The notes beneath the pieces were generated by a model. The model was not told the origin of the DNA, did no database searches, and saw only the letters and a program-made list of their open reading frames with translations. DNA of 64,000 nt from Alphaproteobacteria bacterium (lineage in GTDB: Bacteria > Pseudomonadota > Alphaproteobacteria > Micropepsales > Micropepsaceae): positions 372,001 through 436,000 of the forward strand of contig JAGOBA010000002.1 in the NCBI GenBank assembly GCA_017983635.1. The letters run 5' to 3'. A program made the translations under genes and the position numbers. Positions 3,664-63,253 of this stretch are shown here, in pieces. Every line of letters begins with the position of its first letter. The first letter of the stretch is position 1.

Positions 3664-4890
3664 ATGACGACCGAAATTCGCGTACCAGGCCTCGGTGAAT
3701 CGGTGACGGAGGCAACCGTCGCCAAGTGGTTGAAGAACCCGGGCGACGCCGTCCGCGCCGACGAACCTTTGGTCGAACTGGAAACCGACAAGGTGACGGT
3801 CGAAGTCCCGGCCCCAAGCGCGGGCGTCCTCGCCGAGATCCGCGTCCAGTCCGGCGCCACGATCGCCGTCGGCGGTGTGCTGGGGATGATCGGTGAAGGG
3901 GCAGGGGCCGCCGCACCCCCGCCACCGAAGCCGCAACCATTGCCTTCGACCGCACCCAAACCAGCCACAGCCGCGCCGGCGCCTCAGCCCCCGCGCGCGC
4001 CGGTCGCCAACGCACCGGTCGCCCCGTCGGCACGCAAAATGGCCGAAGAGGCCAACATCGCGCCCAGCAACATAGCCGGCTCCGGCCGCGATGGCCGCGT
4101 GATGAAAGGCGATGTCCTCGCCGCTATCGAAGCGCGCGCCAGCGAACCGCGCCCGGTCTACGTTCCTTCGTCCGGCCCGCGTCCCCACGCTAGCCGCGAA
4201 GAGCGCGTACCGATGACGCGCCTGCGCCGGACGATCGCGCTGCGCCTGAAGGAAGCGCAGAACACCTCGGCCATGCTCACGACCTTCAACGAGGTCGACA
4301 TGTCCGGCGTGATGCATTTGCGCGCTGCGCACAAAGACACGTTTGAGAAGCGCTACGGTGTGCGCCTCGGCTTCATGAGCTTCTTCGTGAAGGCCTGCCT
4401 AATCGCACTGAGGGAAATACCGTCAGTCAACGCGGAGATCGAGGGCGACGACATCGTCTACAAGAACTACTACGACATCGGCGTCGCCGTCGGCACGGAG
4501 CGCGGCCTCGTCGTGCCGATCGTGCGCGACGCCGATCAGCTGACGTTCGCCGACATCGAAAAGAAGATCAACGATTTCGGCCTGCGTGCCCGCGACAACA
4601 AGCTTAAGCTGGAAGAGCTGCAAGGCGGCACGTTCACGATCTCGAACGGCGGCGTCTACGGAAGCCTCATGTCGACGCCGATCCTGAACGTGCCCCAGGC
4701 AGGCATCCTCGGCATGCACAAGATCGAACAGCGCCCGGTCGCCATCGACGGCAAAGTCGAAATCCGCCCAATGATGTACGTCGCCCTCTCCTACGACCAC
4801 CGCCTGGTCGACGGCAAAGAAGCGGTAACGTTCCTCGTGCGCGTCAAAGAATGCCTGGAAGCACCGGAACGCCTTGTTCTCGAAGTGTAG
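3664..4890 (+). CDS. sucB: Dihydrolipoamide succinyltransferase (E2 of 2-oxoglutarate dehydrogenase)
   Basis: Structural core of the 2-oxoglutarate dehydrogenase complex; transfers succinyl from lipoamide to CoA. The 408-aa protein shows an N-terminal lipoyl domain (about 1-75) with the lipoylated lysine at K43 ([12 protein letters not shown]), a Pro/Ala-rich linker (about 80-125), a peripheral E1/E3-binding domain ([20 protein letters not shown]) and the catalytic acyltransferase domain ending in [13 protein letters not shown], giving catalytic H379 and D383. The ATG at 3664 is 12 bases after the sucA stop, so the two are surely co-transcribed. lpd follows after a palindromic repeat. Confidence 0.97.
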
Positions 4891-4908
4891 TCGCGTCCAA
4901 AAAAGTTC

Positions 4909-5057
4909 GTCATGGCCGGGCTTGACCCGGCCACCCAGTGCGCGCACGTCTGTGCGCGCGAGAGACTGAGACCGATGACCAGCCACTCACATCGCAATAG
5001 ATTTCCCCGGCGCTGCCGTGCCGCTTCCTGGGTGGCCGGGTCAAGCCCGGCCATGAC
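4909..5057 (+). repeat. MITE-like palindromic repeat, copy 1
   Basis: Two 30-base arms (4909-4938 and 5028-5057) are perfect inverted complements of one another and enclose about 89 bases of unrelated sequence. The arm itself contains a smaller palindrome (GCCGGGCTTGACCCGGC). The same 30-base arm recurs at 8195-8224 and 8370-8399. It carries no gene. It fills the sucB-lpd gap and ends 9 bases before the lpd start codon, so any sucB-lpd transcript carries this foldback and lpd translation starts beside it. Confidence 0.9.
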
Positions 5058-5066
5058 GGTGTTGGC

Positions 5067-6473
5067 ATGACCGACACATACGACGCCGTTGTCATCGGTG
5101 GCGGCCCCGGTGGCTACAACGCCGCGATCCGGTTGGGCCAGCTCGGCAAGCGCACGCTCTGCGTGGAAAAGCGCGGCAAGCTCGGCGGCACCTGTCTGAA
5201 CATCGGCTGCATCCCGTCCAAGGCGCTGCTCCGCGTCTCCGAACTCTTCGAAGAAACGAAATCGCACTACGGCGCGCTCGGCATCAAAACAACCGGTGTC
5301 GACTACGACCTGCCAACCATGATGGCGCACAAGGACAAGACCGTCGACGGCCTGACCAAGGGCGTCGAGTTCCTGTTCAAGAAAAACAAGGTCGAACACG
5401 TCTACGGCACCGGCGCGTTCGCCGGTGGCAACCGCGTCGACATCAAGGCGAACGACGGCACGACGCGCACGGTCGAAGCCAAGGCGATCATTATCGCGAC
5501 CGGCTCGGAGCCGACCCCGCTCGCCGGCGTCGCCGTAAACGAGAAGGACGTCGTCTCCTCCACCGGTGCCCTCGCGCTAACCACAGTGCCCAAGCGCCTG
5601 CTCGTGATCGGCGCCGGCTACATCGGCCTCGAAATGGGCTCGGTCTGGCGTCGTCTCGGCAGCCAAGTCACCGTCGTCGAATATCTGGACCGCATCACCC
5701 CCGGTCTCGACGGTGAAGTCGCCAAAAACTTCCAACGCATCCTTGCCAAGCAAGGCATGACGTTCAAACTGGGCGCCAAGGTCGTGGGCGTCGAACGCAA
5801 GAACGGCGCACTGCATGTCGCGATCGAACCCGCCGCCGGCGGCCCGCGCGAGACGATCGAAACCGACATCGTGCTCTCTTCGATCGGCCGCCGCCCCTAC
5901 ACGGAAGGCCTCGGTCTTGAAAAAGTCGGCCTCAAATTCGACGCCAAAGGCCGCATTCCGGTCGGCCACCACTACGCGACCGCGATTGCCGGCATCTACG
6001 CCATCGGCGACGTGATCGAAGGCCCGATGCTCGCCCACAAAGCCGAAGACGAAGGGGTCGCCATCGCCGAACGCATCGCAGGCCAAGCGGGCCACGTGAA
6101 CTACGAAGCAATCCCCGCCGTCGTCTACACCGCCCCCGAAGTCGCCACCGTGGGCAAAACCGAAGAAGACCTGAAGGCCGCCGGCATCGCCTACAAAGTC
6201 GGCAAGTTCCCCTTCAGCGCCAACTCCCGCGCCCGCGCGAACGCCAGCACGGAAGGCTTCGTCAAAATGCTCGCCGACGCCAAAACCGACCGCGTCCTCG
6301 GCGTCCACATGATCGGCCCCGAAGTCGGCAACATGATCGCCGAAGCCGCCTTCGCGATCGAACTCGGCGCCTCGTCTGAAGACATCGCCCGCACCAGCCA
6401 CGCCCACCCAACGCTAACCGAAGCCGTCCGCCAAGCCGCCCAAGCGGTCGGCGGCTGGACGATGCAGATGTAG
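5067..6473 (+). CDS. lpd: Dihydrolipoamide dehydrogenase (E3)
   Basis: Flavoprotein that reoxidises dihydrolipoamide with NAD+, serving 2-oxoglutarate dehydrogenase and possibly other lipoyl complexes. The 468-aa protein has the FAD dinucleotide-binding motif GGGPGGYNAA near residue 11, the redox-active disulfide C43/C48 (GGTCLNIGCIPSKALL), the NAD motif VIGAGYIGLEMGSV, and the C-terminal catalytic His-Glu pair in HAHPTLTE (about H447/E452). The start ATG lies right after repeat copy 1 and has only a weak Shine-Dalgarno sequence. Confidence 0.97.
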   Translation: MTDTYDAVVIGGGPGGYNAAIRLGQLGKRTLCVEKRGKLGGTCLNIGCIPSKALLRVSELFEETKSHYGALGIKTTGVDYDLPTMMAHKDKTVDGLTKGVEFLFKKNKVEHVYGTGAFAGGNRVDIKANDGTTRTVEAKAIIIATGSEPTPLAGVAVNEKDVVSSTGALALTTVPKRLLVIGAGYIGLEMGSVWRRLGSQVTVVEYLDRITPGLDGEVAKNFQRILAKQGMTFKLGAKVVGVERKNGALHVAIEPAAGGPRETIETDIVLSSIGRRPYTEGLGLEKVGLKFDAKGRIPVGHHYATAIAGIYAIGDVIEGPMLAHKAEDEGVAIAERIAGQAGHVNYEAIPAVVYTAPEVATVGKTEEDLKAAGIAYKVGKFPFSANSRARANASTEGFVKMLADAKTDRVLGVHMIGPEVGNMIAEAAFAIELGASSEDIARTSHAHPTLTEAVRQAAQAVGGWTMQM

Positions 6474-54951: not shown

Positions 54952-56847
54952 ATGCGTAGAAGCCTTTTGCTGGCATCGATTGCGTTCGCCGCCATCACGC
55001 CAGTCGTTCTGGTGACGCCGCCAGCGCAAGCCGGCGGCCTCGAATGGGTTGACCGGCGAGCCAAGCTGCAAGCCGATGCGGCCCAACTCACGATCCGCAT
55101 TCACGACTATCAGCTCAGCCGAAGCTACTGCAGACCCACACATCCAAGGGACAAAACCTTCGACGAGGTAAGTCTGAACCAGCTTGAGGAGGAACTCGCG
55201 CTGCTGGGCACCGAATTCGAAGCTATCAAGACAGGCACATTGGCGGCGACCCAAGGCACGTCCGGCGGCGGCATCACGCAGGATAGGTTGATGACCCCCG
55301 GCTATCCGACATATCGCGGCTTCGATGTTCGCGACGACAAGCATTGGGTGAATATGCGGCGCGACACGTTCGATGACGCGCGCAAACTTCTGGCGGCGAA
55401 ACGGGAAAAACTGGCCAAGGCACCTGAGGAATTCTGCGGCGAGCCGACAAAGAAAACCACAGGCATCATCGGAAGCCCGCCGGCCCAACCCGTCGATGAG
55501 CCGGTTCCCGCGCCGACCTACGCCCCTATCAACATCCCGGGCCGTCCCACGCGCTTCTGCTCGATCGACGAAAAGGATGCCTGGCTGGCTCCGCTCGCCA
55601 AACAAATGGAAGACGCGATCGAGAACGAAAAGCTCGCGTGGGGCTGGGCGCAGGCGTTGAAGCGCGCCATGTCGAAGCGGCGCGATAACGCGGCGCTGCA
55701 AGCCCTCGCCACCACCGCGATCGCCCAACGCGATGCGTATCGCGACCTGAACATCAAGGCCAACAGGCTCTATGTCGACGTGCGCGACAACGTGCCGGTC
55801 GAAAAGTGCGGCGGCGATACCCCGAAGGAAGTCGGCGTCGTGCCCGGCAACACCGGCACCTCGGTCGGCGTCGGGGTCGGTGTCGGTCGAATCAGCATTC
55901 CAAGGCGGCTCTATCTCGCACTCGAGAACGCCGGCGAGTTGCGCCTCGGTGCTGCCGACACGTTGCGCCGGGAAACATTCGCGGCTCTATTCGTCACCAT
56001 GATGTACGACCTGGATTTTCTGCCGAAGCTCAACCTCGCCAAGGTCTTCGGTCTCGGCGACTCGCGCAGCCAACGCACCAGGCTCACCGGCGAACTCGAA
56101 ACCTACGACGTAACGCTAAAGTCGTCGGGCGGTTCGGTCGTCACCACGACTGAAGGTCTCGGCATTCCCGGAACCGGCGATCCCAGCCACCCAAGCCCCG
56201 CGGGTTATTTCTTGGCCAACCCTGCCCTCAACGACGTGATGGACATTTCGCAGCGCTACTCGACGAGTTACGATGGCCTTCACATCGCGATCGAGCAGGA
56301 AGAGAGTTGCGAAAACATGTCCGGTTCGCTCGCCATCGGCGGACGCTTCGGGCGCCTCGAAACGTCGGACCGGTTCTCCGGCTCGATCCCGGGCTTCGGC
56401 AGAGGCTTTGCCTACCAGACCGATCTCGAAACCGCGATCTGGGGTCTCTTCGTCGCGACGGAGGCAGAAGTTTCGCTCGACAATGCTTGGGATGGCGCCT
56501 TGCGCTACGCGGGCGAATTCTCAGGGTTTAGAGTGTCCGCCGGTGCCCGCGCAGGCGTCAACTTCGTTTCGGCCGACGGCACCGACCGGCTCGACTTCAC
56601 CGGCTTCGCGCCGCAAAGCGTGCGCTTGTCGAAGGACGAGACCACCTTCAGCTATCAGCTCAAAGCCGGCCTGCACTACACACCGCCGGCCGCACCGGGC
56701 TTGGATATCTCAATCAGTGGCGTCTACAACCTCGACGGCATCCACAATTCCGTCAACCGCACCGGCGAAACCGGCGACAGCTCTCAATTGAAGATTGAGA
56801 ACCAAGAAATGTACTACGGCATCGTACGCACAACCTTCACGTTCTGA
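54952..56847 (+). CDS. Novel outer-membrane protein with helical N-terminal part
   Basis: 631 aa, no family recognised. Signal peptide 1-27 (FAAITPVVLVTPPAQA). Residues 30-300 are charged and helical, with a few cysteines, and a Pro-rich spacer (about 175-200). From about residue 300 a Gly/Val stretch (GTSVGVGVGVGR) leads into a beta-rich region with alternating hydrophobic strands (for example SLAIGGRFGRLE, GFRVSAGARAGVNFVS) and the C-terminus YYGIVRTTFTF, the terminal phenylalanine expected of Bam-inserted barrels. Site C lies just upstream. Confidence 0.7.
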   Translation: MRRSLLLASIAFAAITPVVLVTPPAQAGGLEWVDRRAKLQADAAQLTIRIHDYQLSRSYCRPTHPRDKTFDEVSLNQLEEELALLGTEFEAIKTGTLAATQGTSGGGITQDRLMTPGYPTYRGFDVRDDKHWVNMRRDTFDDARKLLAAKREKLAKAPEEFCGEPTKKTTGIIGSPPAQPVDEPVPAPTYAPINIPGRPTRFCSIDEKDAWLAPLAKQMEDAIENEKLAWGWAQALKRAMSKRRDNAALQALATTAIAQRDAYRDLNIKANRLYVDVRDNVPVEKCGGDTPKEVGVVPGNTGTSVGVGVGVGRISIPRRLYLALENAGELRLGAADTLRRETFAALFVTMMYDLDFLPKLNLAKVFGLGDSRSQRTRLTGELETYDVTLKSSGGSVVTTTEGLGIPGTGDPSHPSPAGYFLANPALNDVMDISQRYSTSYDGLHIAIEQEESCENMSGSLAIGGRFGRLETSDRFSGSIPGFGRGFAYQTDLETAIWGLFVATEAEVSLDNAWDGALRYAGEFSGFRVSAGARAGVNFVSADGTDRLDFTGFAPQSVRLSKDETTFSYQLKAGLHYTPPAAPGLDISISGVYNLDGIHNSVNRTGETGDSSQLKIENQEMYYGIVRTTFTF

Positions 56848-57337: not shown

Positions 57338-58963
57338 CTACAAACTCGGCTTCGACGGATAGTCCGAGCGCTTGCGTGCCGTCGCCTCCAGCATCTCCAT
57401 CGCCGCCAGCGCCACGTGCTCGCGCCAAGGCCGCGCGATCACCTGCACGCCGAACGGCAATCCCGCGCCGCCGTTGACGTTGCGCCGTTGCGCGGGCGTC
57501 AGATGCTGCACCTCCGGCCCGCGCTCTTCGTTCGGCCTGACGCGCGTCCACGGCACGATACCGGCCGGATAGCCGAGCACGTTGTAGAGAATGGTGTGCG
57601 TCCCTAAGAACGCGGGATCGGTGCTCGCACCGTGTGGCGCCGCGGGAACGGCGAACCCCGGCGCTAAGATCAGATCCATCCGGTTCGCGTCGTTCATGGC
57701 CTTCGCGAACGAATTGCGGAAGTCGACGACCTGCCGAGCAACATCCCAATAGGCGGCAGTATCGCGGTTGCCGAATGCGCGCAACACCCGCGCCGTCTCC
57801 GCTTGTCCCGTCAGCCCTAGGAGCGTGGCCAGCCATCGCGCCCGACGGTTCGACATCGATGCGGTGCCGAGTAAAGCGGCAATTCGTGGATCGGCCTTGT
57901 TGCGCCCAAGAATGTCTTTGAACGCGCTGCCGCCCGCGGTCATTGCGGCGAAGTAAAGTTCCTGCGCAGTGGCAACCGTTGTCGGCTTCCACTCGAACAC
58001 GCTGGCACCGGCCGCGCGCAGCACGTCGGCGGCCTCGCGCACCGCGCGCTGCCCTGTGGGACAAACAGAGGTGACCCCGTCGTCTGCGTAATAGCCGACG
58101 GTCAACTTCGAGAGATCGACGGACGCCGGATCGCCCAGCGGCGCGTAGACGCCGTTGTCGTTCAGATTGGCCCGATTGATGACGTCGAGGCCAAGTGCAA
58201 TGTCGCCGGTCGAGTTCGCCATTACGCCGACCTGACTTTCAATCACCTGCTGACCGATCGGGTAGGAATAGCGCCCGGCATCGGGACAGCGCCCGGCGGT
58301 CGGCTTGATCGATACGATGCCGCAAAAGTGGGCCGGGATGCGCACGCTGCCACCGATGTCTGTGCCGAGCCCCAAGCATGAGCCACGCGCCGCGATGATC
58401 GCGCCCTCGCCACCGCTCGAGCCGCCGGTGGTCCGCGTCACATCCCACGGATTATTCGTGCGCCCATAAAGCGGATTATCCGTCTCGACGAACAGCAGCA
58501 TCTGCGCCACGTTCGTTTTGCCAAGCACGATCGCGCCCGCCTCGCGCAGCGCCCGCACGTGCCGCTCGTCGCTGGTCGCCATCGTCTTCGCCCGCGACGG
58601 CAACCCAAACGTCGAAGGTGTCCCCTCAAGGTCGAGACATTCCTTCAGCGTGATCGGCACCCCGGCCAGCGGCGGCAGCTTCGCCCCCTCGCGCCGCTGC
58701 GCGTCGACCTGCGTCGCTTCCGCCTCTGCCTGCTCGAAGCGCTTCCAAACGACGGCGTTCAACTTCGGATTGACGCGCTCGATGCATTGAATGTGCGAGC
58801 GCACGGTTTCGGCCGCGGAGAGCCGTCCCTCGACGATCGCGCGCGCCGTCTCGGCCGCGCCCAAGTCCAACAATGAAGCCACAGCGAAGTCCCACCCCGT
58901 CGGCCCGTCATTAGCATGCAGGCGCCGCAATGCGCTATCGTCGCGCCACTCGTTATTCGCCAT
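57338..58963 (-). CDS. Amidase (amidase-signature family)
   Basis: 541 aa. Ser-cisSer-Lys triad of the amidase signature: K107 in VPITLKECLDLE, cis-Ser 182/183 in TTGGSSGGEGAIIAAR and nucleophile S206 in GTDIGGSVRIPAHFCG. No signal peptide; cytoplasmic. Hydrolyses amide bonds of unknown small substrates (not GatA, as there is no gatB/C). Divergent from the thioesterase gene. Confidence 0.9.
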   Translation of the reverse strand: MANNEWRDDSALRRLHANDGPTGWDFAVASLLDLGAAETARAIVEGRLSAAETVRSHIQCIERVNPKLNAVVWKRFEQAEAEATQVDAQRREGAKLPPLAGVPITLKECLDLEGTPSTFGLPSRAKTMATSDERHVRALREAGAIVLGKTNVAQMLLFVETDNPLYGRTNNPWDVTRTTGGSSGGEGAIIAARGSCLGLGTDIGGSVRIPAHFCGIVSIKPTAGRCPDAGRYSYPIGQQVIESQVGVMANSTGDIALGLDVINRANLNDNGVYAPLGDPASVDLSKLTVGYYADDGVTSVCPTGQRAVREAADVLRAAGASVFEWKPTTVATAQELYFAAMTAGGSAFKDILGRNKADPRIAALLGTASMSNRRARWLATLLGLTGQAETARVLRAFGNRDTAAYWDVARQVVDFRNSFAKAMNDANRMDLILAPGFAVPAAPHGASTDPAFLGTHTILYNVLGYPAGIVPWTRVRPNEERGPEVQHLTPAQRRNVNGGAGLPFGVQVIARPWREHVALAAMEMLEATARKRSDYPSKPSL

Positions 58964-58973
58964 TCAAGGAACG

Positions 58974-59495
58974 ATGATGCGCAACGAACGCACCTACCGC
59001 TGGGCCGACCCGGCCGAGCTCACGAAGGCCGCCGAAGGTCTCTCCGGCCTCGATCTCTTGAAGGCGATGTGCGAAGGTAAAGTCCCGCCGCCGCCGGTCG
59101 GCAGCCTCATCGGGGTCGACGAATTCGTGGCCGAGAAGGGCAAAGTCTCCTGCGCCTTCGACCCGGCGGAGTTCCACTACAACGCGCTGGGCACCGTCCA
59201 CGGCGGCGTGATCGCGACCGTCATCGACATCGTCATGGGCTCGGCAGTCCACTCGACACTAAAAGCGGGGCAGGGCTTCACGACCCTGACGCTCGAACTC
59301 AAATACCACCGCGCCGTCACGACAAAGTCGGGCCGCCTCACCGCCACCGCCGAAGTCATCACCCGCGGCCGCGACATCGTCACCGCCGAAGCCAAACTCC
59401 TCGACAAGAACGACCGCCTCTTCGCCAACGCGACATCGACGTTGATGATCCTGCGGCCGCCCGCGGGCTCACGCGCCGCCGCTGAAGCGCTTTAG
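58974..59495 (+). CDS. PaaI-family hotdog thioesterase
   Basis: 173 aa. Hotdog fold with EFHYNALGTVHGGVIATVID (the HGG active-site stretch of PaaI) and TLTLELKYHRAVT. Hydrolyses aryl- or acyl-CoA thioesters. Start at 58974 (MMRN); the second ATG at 58977 has better spacing to an AAGGA box. Convergent with the GH3-like gene, overlapping it by 27 bases at the 3' end. Confidence 0.88.
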   Translation: MMRNERTYRWADPAELTKAAEGLSGLDLLKAMCEGKVPPPPVGSLIGVDEFVAEKGKVSCAFDPAEFHYNALGTVHGGVIATVIDIVMGSAVHSTLKAGQGFTTLTLELKYHRAVTTKSGRLTATAEVITRGRDIVTAEAKLLDKNDRLFANATSTLMILRPPAGSRAAAEAL

Positions 59496-60989
59496 GTCGG
59501 CGAACAGCGTCTGATCGTTGATGATGCGCGGCACTTTGTTCTGGCCGCCCAGCCGCCCGCGCGACTTCATCCATTGCGAGAACGTACCCGGCGCGACCGC
59601 GCGGACTTTTGGCGCGTGCATACCAAAGCCTTCCGCCCGGTGCGCGCGATAGTCGTCGTTGCGCTCCTGCAGCCGCACGTCGATTGCGCTGGCGAACGCT
59701 TGAACCACACTCTCGGCCGGCACGCGCTCGAACTCGACGACAAACAAATGCCCGCCCAGGTCTCCGGCGCTCGCCGGAAAGACCGCGCCCATGGAAAAGT
59801 CGTTGATCGTCAGACCCTTCGATGCCGCGGCAAACGACACCGCATCCTCGACCTCTTCGCCGATCAAGTGCTCGCCGAACGCCGACATCGAATAGCTCGT
59901 GCGTCCGGTGATGAAGAGCCGCGGCGGTTGACGCGACGCGAACCGCACCGTGTCGCCGATCACATAGCCAAAACAACCCGAGCACGTCGAAAGCACGATC
60001 GCATAGTTGACGCCGGTTTCGACAGTCTTCACCCAATGCCGCGTCGGCCGGGGCGAATCCAGTTCCTCCAGCGGCACGAACTCGAAGAAGAGCCCGTTGT
60101 CTGTGATCAACCTCAAGCCGTCTTCCGGCGTCTCGTCCTGCAGCGCGATGAAGCCTTCCGACGCAGGATAGACTTCGCGCAGCTCGGCACCGCCCGCTAG
60201 AAACGTCTCGAATCGCGCACGATACGGTTTGAAGTTCACCCCGCCATGCACAAGCAGATCAAGCTTCGGATAAAGCTCGCGCGCGCTAACCGCGCGCCCG
60301 GCATTCGCCTGCTGCCGGTCGAAGAGAATGAACAGCCACGACGGCGTCCCGGTGATCACGCGAATGTCGGTCTCGACCGCCAGTTTGGCGAGCTTCGCGA
60401 CTTTTTCCTCCCAATCGGTGAGCAGTGCATACTCGATCGGTGGAAACGCGAATTGGTGCGCCCACCACGGCAAGCGTTTGATCGCAATCCCCGAAAGATC
60501 GCCCGACCACACGCCGTCCGCCTGCCGCACCAAATCGGTCGACCCGCCCAGCATGAAGCTCTTGCCGCCGAAGACACGCGACGCCGGCCGATGCGTCACG
60601 TGATGCGAGAACAGGTCGAGCCCCGCCTGCGTGTTCGAGCGGTTCATCGCTTGCGTCACCGGAATGTACTTCGATGCACCCGACGTCGTTCCCGACGTCA
60701 CCGCGAAGTATGGCACGCGCCCCGGCCAAGTGACGTTCTCGATCACCGGAAACTTTGGCTGCCAATACGCCTTCCAGAAGTCGTCATATCGGCGCAGCGG
60801 CACAGCTTTCTGATAGTCCTCGACCGTCGTGATCGAGCCAAAACCATGCTCGCGGCCGAATTGCGTGTTCGCCGCAGTCGCCAACAAGCGTTGGAGTTGC
60901 TGCTCTTGCGCCGCCGCCTCGTCAAGCGCGCCGAGCTTGCGCCGCCGCCGCCGCGCGTAAAGCTTGAGCAACGGCGTGAAGTCGGTCAT
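59469..60989 (-). CDS. GH3-type acyl-acid amido synthetase
   Basis: 506 aa, an ANL-superfamily member of the GH3 group known mainly from plants (auxin/jasmonate conjugating enzymes). Start MTDFTPLLKLYARRRRRKLG; AMP-binding loop VTSGTTSGASKYIPVT, adenine-side motif EVYPASEGFIALQDE and the hinge TGRTSYSMSAFGEHLIGEEV. These enzymes adenylate an acyl acid and join it to an amino acid. ATG at 60989 overlaps the acylase stop by 4 bases. A frame open to 62066 in the same register is a shadow of the acylase gene. Confidence 0.88.
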   Translation of the reverse strand: MTDFTPLLKLYARRRRRKLGALDEAAAQEQQLQRLLATAANTQFGREHGFGSITTVEDYQKAVPLRRYDDFWKAYWQPKFPVIENVTWPGRVPYFAVTSGTTSGASKYIPVTQAMNRSNTQAGLDLFSHHVTHRPASRVFGGKSFMLGGSTDLVRQADGVWSGDLSGIAIKRLPWWAHQFAFPPIEYALLTDWEEKVAKLAKLAVETDIRVITGTPSWLFILFDRQQANAGRAVSARELYPKLDLLVHGGVNFKPYRARFETFLAGGAELREVYPASEGFIALQDETPEDGLRLITDNGLFFEFVPLEELDSPRPTRHWVKTVETGVNYAIVLSTCSGCFGYVIGDTVRFASRQPPRLFITGRTSYSMSAFGEHLIGEEVEDAVSFAAASKGLTINDFSMGAVFPASAGDLGGHLFVVEFERVPAESVVQAFASAIDVRLQERNDDYRAHRAEGFGMHAPKVRAVAPGTFSQWMKSRGRLGGQNKVPRIINDQTLFADLKRFSGGA

Positions 60990-63253
60990 CGCGCCTTCAG
61001 AACGCTCTTCCGCGCAAACGTCGCGCGCACGGTCTCGATCTTCAGCGGCACCTGATAGCTGTGCCCGGTCATGAACGCATCGACTTGATCGCGAAACGTG
61101 GACGAGTTGTACCAGCCGTCGTTCCCGCCCAGCATCACGAACCAGTTCGCGTCCGGGTTCGAGAGATCCGACACATGCCGCGCCTGCGCGCCATAGCGCG
61201 TATCGTGCCGCTCCGCCGAGGACTCGTGATCCGTCTTCAAGATCGTCTCCGACGATCCCGCGGCCGGCACGTTGTCGAACTGATAGCGCGACCCGATCAC
61301 TGGGATCGCCGCAAACTGCGCCTGCACCGAAAGGCGATGCATGTCGCCCCAGGTCGGGTAGTCCACCGTCGCCTTCACGGCCACGTCGAGCGCCGCAATC
61401 GTAGCTGCGCGGAACGCCTCGGCGTTCAGCGTGGCGACCCGCGGCGCAAGTTGGCCATAAGGACTGCCCGCAGCGTCGAGGGCGATGATCTCGTCCGCCG
61501 GAAACATAGCCGGCAAAAACGACGCCATCACCGCCTCGAACGCCACAACACCCGCACTGTCGCGATCGTAGCGACCGTTCCAGTCCTCGATCGCCCGCGC
61601 CAGCCGCGCCTGATCGGCGCTCAACGTGAGCGCGTCCGCCTTCAGGCGCTTCACGAACGCGTCGCGCATCATGACCGACGAACTCGAATACGTATCCATC
61701 TGAATGCGCTTCAGATCGGCCGCCGAAACCCGCTTCGCCGAACCAAGGATTGCTTGCATGCGCGTCACGCGATCGTCGGCGGAAAAGAAATAGCCGATCG
61801 GCACGCTCGCATCCGCGCCACGGTTGTTGGCGGAGGCAACGAACCCTGTCGACGGATTGTAGACCGCGGGCAAATCGCGCGAAGTCAAAATCTCGTTCCA
61901 CGCCGCCGCATCGCCGATGGGCCGGACGAGATCGCCTGGCAGGGCCTTCGACCGCTTCGGCAAATGCGTCGCCGTCACCTGCCCGATGTTTCCCTTCGCA
62001 TCCGCATAGACGAAGTTCTGTGGTGAAATCGAAAAGCCTTCGAGCGCCGTGCGGAACGCCTGCCAATCGCGCGCCCGATTGACGCCGAGCATCGCGGTAA
62101 ACTCGTCGCTTGGGTTATGCCCGATCCAGCGCAGCGCAAACATCTCGCCCTCGCGTTTCGGAAAGATCTCGACGTCCGAGAGAATGGGCCCGTAGGGCGT
62201 TTCGCGCACCGTGATCTCAGAGTCGAACCACCACCGCGTCTTCACGCTCTCAGTTCGAGTGCTGATTTTCTCGGCCGGCAGCGAACGCACGTCGATCAGG
62301 TCGCTCCCCGCTGAGCGCATGTTGGTGCCGCCCCAGGCAATATTCTCGTTGCGCCCAACCGCGACGAACGGAATGCCCGGCACCATCAGCCCGACCATGT
62401 GATAGGACGGCGACTTCACGCCGGCCAACACCCAAAGGTTCGGCAGACTGATACCGAGGTGCGGATCGTTCGCGATCATGGCCGCGCCCGTGCCGGTTTT
62501 GGCCGCACCGACCGCCATCGAGTTGGAACCCGTCCGGCTCGATGTCGAAAGAAGCCGCGAGAACTCGTTCAGCGCGTGGTTCGAGTTTGCCGTGAAGCTC
62601 GGCGCCGAGTTGATGCCTTCCTCAAGCACTTCCCGCCACAGCTTCGGCCACTCCGGCCGGTCGCGGTACTGCATCAAGCGAAACCAGACCAGCCACGACA
62701 CGTCGATCGAAGCGAGCCGCCCGACGGTCAAAACCTCTTCGGCCCGCCACGGATCGCGATCGAGCCCGAGCAGCGCATACTCGTGCGGCAACTCTTTTGC
62801 CGTCGCTTGGTAGTGATTGACCCCTTCGACGAACGCGTCGAGCCACGCCTTCGTCTCGGCCGGCATCGATGCGTAGACAGCCTTGGACGTCTTGCCCAAG
62901 TTCACGGTGCGCAAAGCCTTCTCGATGTCGCTGACTTGCGGGATCGGCCCGGCGACCTCGCTCAAGCGGCCTTGGCTGAGCCGCCGCGCGACCTCCATCT
63001 GCCCCAGCCGCAAATGCGCATGCGCGAGCCCCAAAGCAAAAGCCGCATCGCGATCCGTGCTCGCTTCGATGAAGGGCACCTGCTGCTCGTTCCAGTGGAT
63101 CGTGACCGGCCCGCTCAGCGGCAAGCCTGCCGTCGGGAACATCGCAAGCCGCTCGTCTAAACTCTTCGGCTCGGGCAGCGACGTGAACACCGCACAACTG
63201 GCCAAACCAAAAACCGATATAACTACAAACGTCAGCTGTGCAATTGCACGCAT
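60986..63253 (-). CDS. Penicillin-acylase-family lipoprotein (Ntn amidohydrolase)
   Basis: 755 aa. Lipobox FGLASC with C20 marks it as a lipoprotein. An alpha subunit region precedes the autoprocessing site TGSNSMAVG, where S243 would be the nucleophile of the beta subunit; ANDPHLGISLPNLW and GRNENIAWGGTNM are family motifs. Such enzymes cleave acyl amides such as penicillins or N-acyl homoserine lactones in the periplasm. Ends overlapping the GH3-like start (ATGA), so the pair is translated together. Confidence 0.9.
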   Translation of the reverse strand: MRAIAQLTFVVISVFGLASCAVFTSLPEPKSLDERLAMFPTAGLPLSGPVTIHWNEQQVPFIEASTDRDAAFALGLAHAHLRLGQMEVARRLSQGRLSEVAGPIPQVSDIEKALRTVNLGKTSKAVYASMPAETKAWLDAFVEGVNHYQATAKELPHEYALLGLDRDPWRAEEVLTVGRLASIDVSWLVWFRLMQYRDRPEWPKLWREVLEEGINSAPSFTANSNHALNEFSRLLSTSSRTGSNSMAVGAAKTGTGAAMIANDPHLGISLPNLWVLAGVKSPSYHMVGLMVPGIPFVAVGRNENIAWGGTNMRSAGSDLIDVRSLPAEKISTRTESVKTRWWFDSEITVRETPYGPILSDVEIFPKREGEMFALRWIGHNPSDEFTAMLGVNRARDWQAFRTALEGFSISPQNFVYADAKGNIGQVTATHLPKRSKALPGDLVRPIGDAAAWNEILTSRDLPAVYNPSTGFVASANNRGADASVPIGYFFSADDRVTRMQAILGSAKRVSAADLKRIQMDTYSSSSVMMRDAFVKRLKADALTLSADQARLARAIEDWNGRYDRDSAGVVAFEAVMASFLPAMFPADEIIALDAAGSPYGQLAPRVATLNAEAFRAATIAALDVAVKATVDYPTWGDMHRLSVQAQFAAIPVIGSRYQFDNVPAAGSSETILKTDHESSAERHDTRYGAQARHVSDLSNPDANWFVMLGGNDGWYNSSTFRDQVDAFMTGHSYQVPLKIETVRATFARKSVLKAR

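Follow-up and report, generated by a model that had tools for sequence, protein, structure and literature searches.

Conserved pairing of an OlsH-like GH3 synthetase with a predicted penicillin-amidase-family lipoprotein in Alphaproteobacteria and its possible role in amino-lipid recycling

Why would a bacterium couple the gene for an enzyme expected to make acyl amides to the gene for one expected to break them? The question is raised by a 64,000-nucleotide stretch of DNA (the window) from an alphaproteobacterium of the family Micropepsaceae (assembly GCA_017983635.1, contig JAGOBA010000002.1, positions 372,001 to 436,000), in which a gene of the penicillin-acylase family (the acylase) directly precedes a gene encoding an acyl-acid amido synthetase of the GH3 family. 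The original prediction, made from the letters of the window, proposed that the two enzymes share an acyl-amide substrate and that the pair, lying beside an amidase and a thioesterase, serves a dedicated signal or storage compound. Both genes were found on the minus strand where they had been placed, the stop codon of the acylase overlapping the start codon of GH3 in ATGA (Table 1). Both family assignments and the presence of the amidase and thioesterase were confirmed by Pfam matches, and the acylase lipobox, LASC, was readable in the translation.

The conservation of the arrangement was evaluated in a set of 61 related genomes, in which adjacency was counted by hand. A GH3 gene was present in 22, and the acylase lay directly upstream in 18 of the 19 assessable cases, the window included; genome G011 was the sole assessable relative lacking an adjacent upstream acylase, and in G003, G027 and G042 the contig ended too soon to judge adjacency. 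Two genomes from the same genus as the window, G001 and G002 (92% and 98% complete), gave no GH3 match and contained only distant acylases (25-29% identity), and G030 encoded the acylase at 52% identity with no GH3 match. When one genome of each species was scanned, a set that partly overlaps the others used here, 111 stretches were confirmed and 80 loci kept. Of these, 45 were of alphaproteobacterial type, among them L067, L071 and other records that carry a different label, and 35 were of Bacteroidota type. The acylase was directly upstream of GH3 in 25 of the 45 alphaproteobacterial-type loci, some of the other 20 ending near the gene, versus none of the 35 Bacteroidota-type loci. With starts placed by homology, five of the 25 paired loci had the 4-base overlap and 22 had a gap of at most 50 bases. 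In L047 (5673-9539) the acylase frame is apparently interrupted, with its end continuing into that of GH3.

Co-occurrence in other genomes was used as a test of the original prediction, in a class-wide count of 387 alphaproteobacterial genomes at least 90% complete. The acylase search returned 65 genomes at 1e-70, of which the 60 with a match of at least 337 bits were kept; the rows dropped were G079, a fragment at 43% identity that is probably a genuine relative, and G086, G130, G247 and G315 (31-34% identity). The GH3 gene was present in 48 genomes and both genes in 43, so that the acylase accompanied GH3 in 43 of 48 genomes versus 17 of the 339 genomes without it. One genome counted as GH3-only, G229, has its acylase cut at a contig end, and counting the fragment raises the figure to 44 of 48. 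The two genes were adjacent in 31 of the 43 genomes (31/48 of those with GH3), representing 19 families. Among the 12 others, ten were clearly unlinked, the two genes lying millions of bases apart in complete genomes such as G192, and in G107 and G204 the GH3 gene stood at a contig start where adjacency is not judgeable. Since ten co-occurrences are clearly unlinked, a shared operon cannot by itself account for the association. Counted by family, which lowers the effect of relatedness without removing it, 22 families had both genes, 8 the acylase only, 2 GH3 only and 122 neither (P = 5.8e-18); among families containing at least one genome of 3 Mb or larger the numbers were 21, 5, 2 and 42, respectively. 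GH3 and acylase protein distances were correlated over 24 pairs (r = 0.79, uncorrected for the species tree). The arrangement is far beyond chance, and the pairing is real and conserved.

The 506-residue GH3 protein matched the Pfam models for the N-terminal, central and C-terminal GH3 domains with 109.7, 46.3 and 69.3 bits and thus has the complete three-domain architecture. The closest characterized system is OlsH of Singulisphaera acidiphila, a GH3-like enzyme described in 2025 that joins a free fatty acid to ornithine at the expense of ATP, after which OlsI attaches the second chain; the sections of that article drawn on here count three known forms of ornithine lipid synthesis and identify Ser115 of motif 1 as essential (PMC12493201). 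The window protein retains the three nucleotide motifs and the essential serine, and scored 603.6 bits against the OlsH equivalog model NF052613 (cut-off 620). A relative in L031, 79% identical and likewise ATGA-coupled to an acylase, scored 628.3 bits, above the cut-off; five further alphaproteobacterial GH3 proteins scored 482-600 bits and three Bacteroidota proteins 322-348 bits. A GH3 protein linked to olsI was available from L067, where OlsI (424.8 bits, cut-off 385), an OlsG-like methyltransferase (245.8 bits, cut-off 350) and GH3 (688.9 bits) are encoded in one row. It is 48% identical to the window protein. Of the 80 positions that do not vary among 22 alphaproteobacterial GH3 relatives it shares 74, compared with 58-63 in seven Bacteroidota proteins; the tree grouped it with the alphaproteobacterial proteins and separated it from those of Bacteroidota (100/100), its branch being long and its placement unsure. 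The model scores, the conservation in the olsI-linked protein and its side of the tree together indicate that the window GH3 resembles OlsH closely. It was not classed as OlsH because the cut-off is missed and no OlsI is encoded, the best score of the OlsI profile over the whole window genome being 39.1 bits against a cut-off of 385; for the latter reason a full OlsH/OlsI pathway was rejected. Conjugation of auxin or another plant hormone was rejected as a first reading, the best phmmer score against solved plant GH3 proteins being 41.1 bits versus 603.6 with the OlsH model. Two side observations concern these genes. The olsI, olsG-like, olsH order of L067 (351-3656) is that described in planctomycetes, although the record is labelled Bacteroidales, the result of either a misassigned bin or transfer. 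In L041 and L149 two GH3 genes stand in tandem, suggesting that these lineages act on a second substrate.

The 755-residue acylase matched Pfam Penicil_amidase (PF01804) over its full length (residues 49-742, 475.2 bits) and has the fold of the N-terminal nucleophile (Ntn) hydrolases. Ser243, Asn244, His265, Asn476, Arg495 and Arg498, predicted to fill the catalytic roles of the penicillin amidase family, were invariant in all 23 aligned acylases. The protein has the features of a bacterial lipoprotein, with the lipobox cysteine at position 20; several of the distant acylases lack a recognizable lipobox cysteine. Paired or unpaired, members of the subfamily group in a single supported clade that excludes the paralogues (100/99). 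Among the matches listed, in which absence of a family does not exclude it, the nearest solved relative by both sequence and fold was D-succinylase of Cupriavidus (7ea4, 7eby), an enzyme that hydrolyses N-succinyl amino acids. The two have the Ntn architecture in common at 24% identity, although the GH3 partner would point to removal of long fatty acyl chains, and not of succinyl, by the window acylase. The long-chain acylases PvdQ and MacQ, which cleave amide-bound fatty acyl chains, belong to the same fold family, but the window protein scored only 35.3 bits against the PvdQ equivalog NF051460 (cut-off 950), and to our knowledge no GH3 partner is known for either.

A connection with ornithine lipids was sought through OlsB, the N-acyltransferase of the OlsB/OlsA pathway, which forms the same class of bond and is unrelated to GH3. 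The window genome encodes an OlsB (325.5 bits, equivalog cut-off 320) approximately 120 kb from the pair; the specific model was applied to this protein only, and elsewhere an OlsB-type gene was taken as a PF13444 match at 1e-15 or better. By this measure an OlsB-type gene was present in 60 of 60 acylase genomes versus 194 of 327 others. Because small genomes tend to be without OlsB, sizes were gathered for the 133 OlsB-negative genomes and a size control was applied: among genomes of at least 3 Mb the counts were 55 of 55 versus 114 of 138 (P = 2e-4), and by family, at the same size limit, 26 of 26 versus 34 of 44 (P = 0.01). The nesting of the acylase within OlsB genomes supports, without proving, that the enzyme acts on lipids of the ornithine-lipid class. 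An OlsB-type gene was also present in 46 of the 48 GH3 genomes (all except G229 and G341), and GH3 as a replacement for OlsB was rejected; their joint presence indicates that GH3 supplements OlsB and does not stand in for it.

Our tentative proposal, held with a confidence just short of even, is that the pair runs a deacylation-reacylation cycle on putative substrates of the ornithine-lipid type. The acylase, a predicted envelope lipoprotein acting in the periplasm, would cut an N-acyl amino lipid to yield a free fatty acid and an amino acid. The fatty acid would then enter the cytosol, where GH3 would rebuild the amide on ornithine or an amino acid like it; to judge by its similarity to OlsH, this enzyme would depend on free fatty acid and ATP and not on acyl-ACP. 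The product would return to the lipid pool. In genomes encoding it, a dienelactone-hydrolase-like protein, described below, could first remove the second, ester-bound chain. The coupled acylase would be one possible supply of fatty acid for GH3. This supply is of interest since OlsH gave no product in living E. coli, for which its authors proposed a lack of free fatty acid (PMC12493201). A broader claim, that Alphaproteobacteria possess a dedicated recycling system for amide-linked membrane lipids built from the acylase and an OlsH-like ligase, with an esterase-like partner in some lineages, in effect a Lands-type cycle for phosphorus-free lipids, is an unlikely though arguable extension, under which the acylase would be a first enzyme for breaking the ornithine-lipid amide. 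If the proposal is correct, the pair would provide a source of the free fatty acid that OlsH needs, and its presence in 22 alphaproteobacterial families offers a concrete candidate for both breakdown and rebuilding of amino lipids. Searches of the literature on OlsH and GH3, penicillin acylase and ornithine-lipid turnover, with most subscription papers outside the search, found, at the level of listings, no report of a GH3-acylase pair and no enzyme opening the amide bond of ornithine lipids; the words 'acylase' and 'amidase' are absent from the main text of PMC12493201, and an apparent GH3 match in the portion of PMC3071791 available refers to GH30. A parallel in mammals, as given in part of PMC7145423, is the setting of N-acyl amino acid levels by synthesis and hydrolysis through PM20D1, described as both synthase and hydrolase, and FAAH. 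Neither mammalian enzyme is known to be related to GH3 or to the acylase.

Several results weigh against this cycle. The OlsH cut-off is missed and OlsI is absent, leaving the window system different from that of S. acidiphila in its coupling to a penicillin-amidase-family gene and in a host that also has OlsB, even though the fold, the motifs, the motif-1 serine, a score in the OlsH range and, as an expectation, the ATP-dependent ligation of a free fatty acid to an amino acid are common to both. With an OlsB of its own, the genome can do without GH3 for ornithine lipid, and the amino acid used by GH3 may be a different one. OlsB-type genes are common (254 of 387 genomes), and the link to them weakens after size control; G229, with GH3 and the acylase fragment, has no OlsB match and, if counted, reduces the nesting to 60 of 61. 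Each gene also occurs alone, the acylase in the 17 genomes without GH3 and GH3 in G042, G065, G234 and G341. The predicted placement of acylase and synthetase in different compartments requires a transport step. Finally, no Pho-box-like sites were found near the pair, the window containing 2 matches versus 2.42 expected, and phosphate control of the pair was rejected on this ground; around OlsB there were 2 matches versus 0.50 expected, neither of them upstream of OlsB.

The main rival to an ornithine-type cycle is identical logic with another amino acid, the pair making and breaking a different N-acyl amino acid that serves as signal, surfactant or store. The co-occurrence of the pair fits it equally well, the presence of OlsB and absence of OlsI are in its favor, and the OlsH authors allow for a different amino acid in homologues from beyond the planctomycetes (PMC12493201). 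It is opposed by the OlsH-range scores, the conservation in the olsI-linked GH3 protein and the near-strict nesting in OlsB genomes, and we consider it unlikely, if a serious candidate. It comes near the signal or storage compound of the original prediction, which is now less likely than a membrane amino lipid given the closeness of the maker to OlsH and the presence of OlsB-type genes in every acylase genome counted. The shared acyl-amide substrate has become more likely with the strong outcome of the co-occurrence test, and it continues to be a presumption. That the genes are merely co-transcribed, with no substrate in common, appears highly improbable: operon adjacency can persist without a shared reaction and either gene is found alone in some genomes, but the co-occurrence holds in the clearly unlinked genomes and at family level, and six was the largest number of alphaproteobacterial loci in which any further neighbour was seen again.

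Two further explanations assign the acylase a different role. In a maturation like that involving PvdQ, GH3 would attach an acyl group to an amine as a transient anchor, the acylated product would cross the membrane and the periplasmic acylase would then detach the anchor. None of the 20 Pfam-scanned neighbour proteins, most neighbours being outside the scan, was an assembly-line protein or exporter, and the PvdQ score is far below the cut-off, making this explanation improbable. In quorum quenching, the acylase would hydrolyse acyl-homoserine lactones and GH3 merely use the released fatty acid. A LuxI-like identity was established only for a weak PF13444 match in the window genome, second, weak matches occur also in G002, G034 and G035, which are without the pair, and at least 11 of the 18 relatives that have the pair adjacent show no second match. 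The OlsH-like identity of the partner would also be left unexplained, and there is little to commend this possibility over the ornithine-type cycle. On contig C10 of the window genome (L115, minus strand) a LuxI-like autoinducer synthase (3987-4610; PF00765, 61.6 bits) is encoded next to a LuxR-type regulator that has an autoinducer-binding domain (4675-5424).

Table 1. Positions of the acylase-GH3 pair and associated features in the window.
Feature	Position	Strand	Basis
Acylase, penicillin-amidase family (Ntn hydrolase), 755 aa, predicted lipoprotein	60986..63253	-	Pfam
Cys20 codon, lipobox LASC	63194..63196	-	Translation; Cys in 17/23 aligned acylases
Ser243 codon, predicted N-terminal nucleophile after self-cleavage	62525..62527	-	Residue 1 of solved beta chains; 23/23 invariant
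GH3 acyl-acid amido synthetase, OlsH-like, 506 aa	59469..60989	-	Pfam GH3 models
ATGA overlap, acylase stop and GH3 start	60986..60989	-	Read directly
GH3 nucleotide motif 1, TSGTTSGASK	60669..60698	-	Ser99 corresponds to essential Ser115 of OlsH; Ser99 invariant 22/22
GH3 nucleotide motif 2, VYPASE	60156..60173	-	Alignment with published OlsH motif
GH3 nucleotide motif 3, GCFGYVIGD	59952..59978	-	Alignment with published OlsH motif
Amidase	57338-58963		Pfam scan of window

A four-gene unit with amidase and thioesterase was rejected since it is not conserved: tblastn searches at 1e-15 that covered the fetched loci beginning with L029 gave the thioesterase in L031 only and the amidase in none. 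An optional third partner would be the dienelactone-hydrolase-like protein, which adjoins GH3 or the acylase in six loci (L048, L053, L054, L101, L151 and L159), five of which were included in the Pfam scan; L053 is from Azospirillum halopraeferens DSM 3675 and L101 from Silicimonas algicola, both cultured. In two of these, L151 (G192) and L159 (G410), GH3 and the acylase are far apart in the genome and the gene stands beside GH3 and beside the acylase, respectively. The acylase was present in 20 of 27 genomes with this protein, kept at 140 bits or more from 40, versus 40 of 360 without it; all 40 genomes gave 21 with the acylase by hand count. No match was obtained in the window genome at 1e-25. 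That the protein is an esterase stripping the second chain is a guess.

Where the acylase was not adjacent to GH3, another constant partner was rejected: the upstream genes scanned, encoding an oxidase subunit, a dioxygenase, a desaturase, a sigma factor and others, were mutually unrelated save for the dienelactone-hydrolase-like protein. In L062 (1446-3731) a molybdopterin-binding oxidase subunit is encoded directly upstream of GH3, in the place of the acylase. A member of a gamma-glutamyltranspeptidase cluster, identified from the L137 member only, lies near the acylase in L042, L043, L072 and L137; gamma-glutamyltranspeptidase is itself an Ntn hydrolase. In the window, the 4HBT thioesterase gene (plus strand, frame end 59495) overlaps the GH3 gene tail to tail by 27 bases (59469-59495). 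Further upstream on the plus strand (54952-56847), a 631-residue protein is encoded that gave no Pfam or NCBIfam match at 0.001 and has a 32% identical relative in L031.
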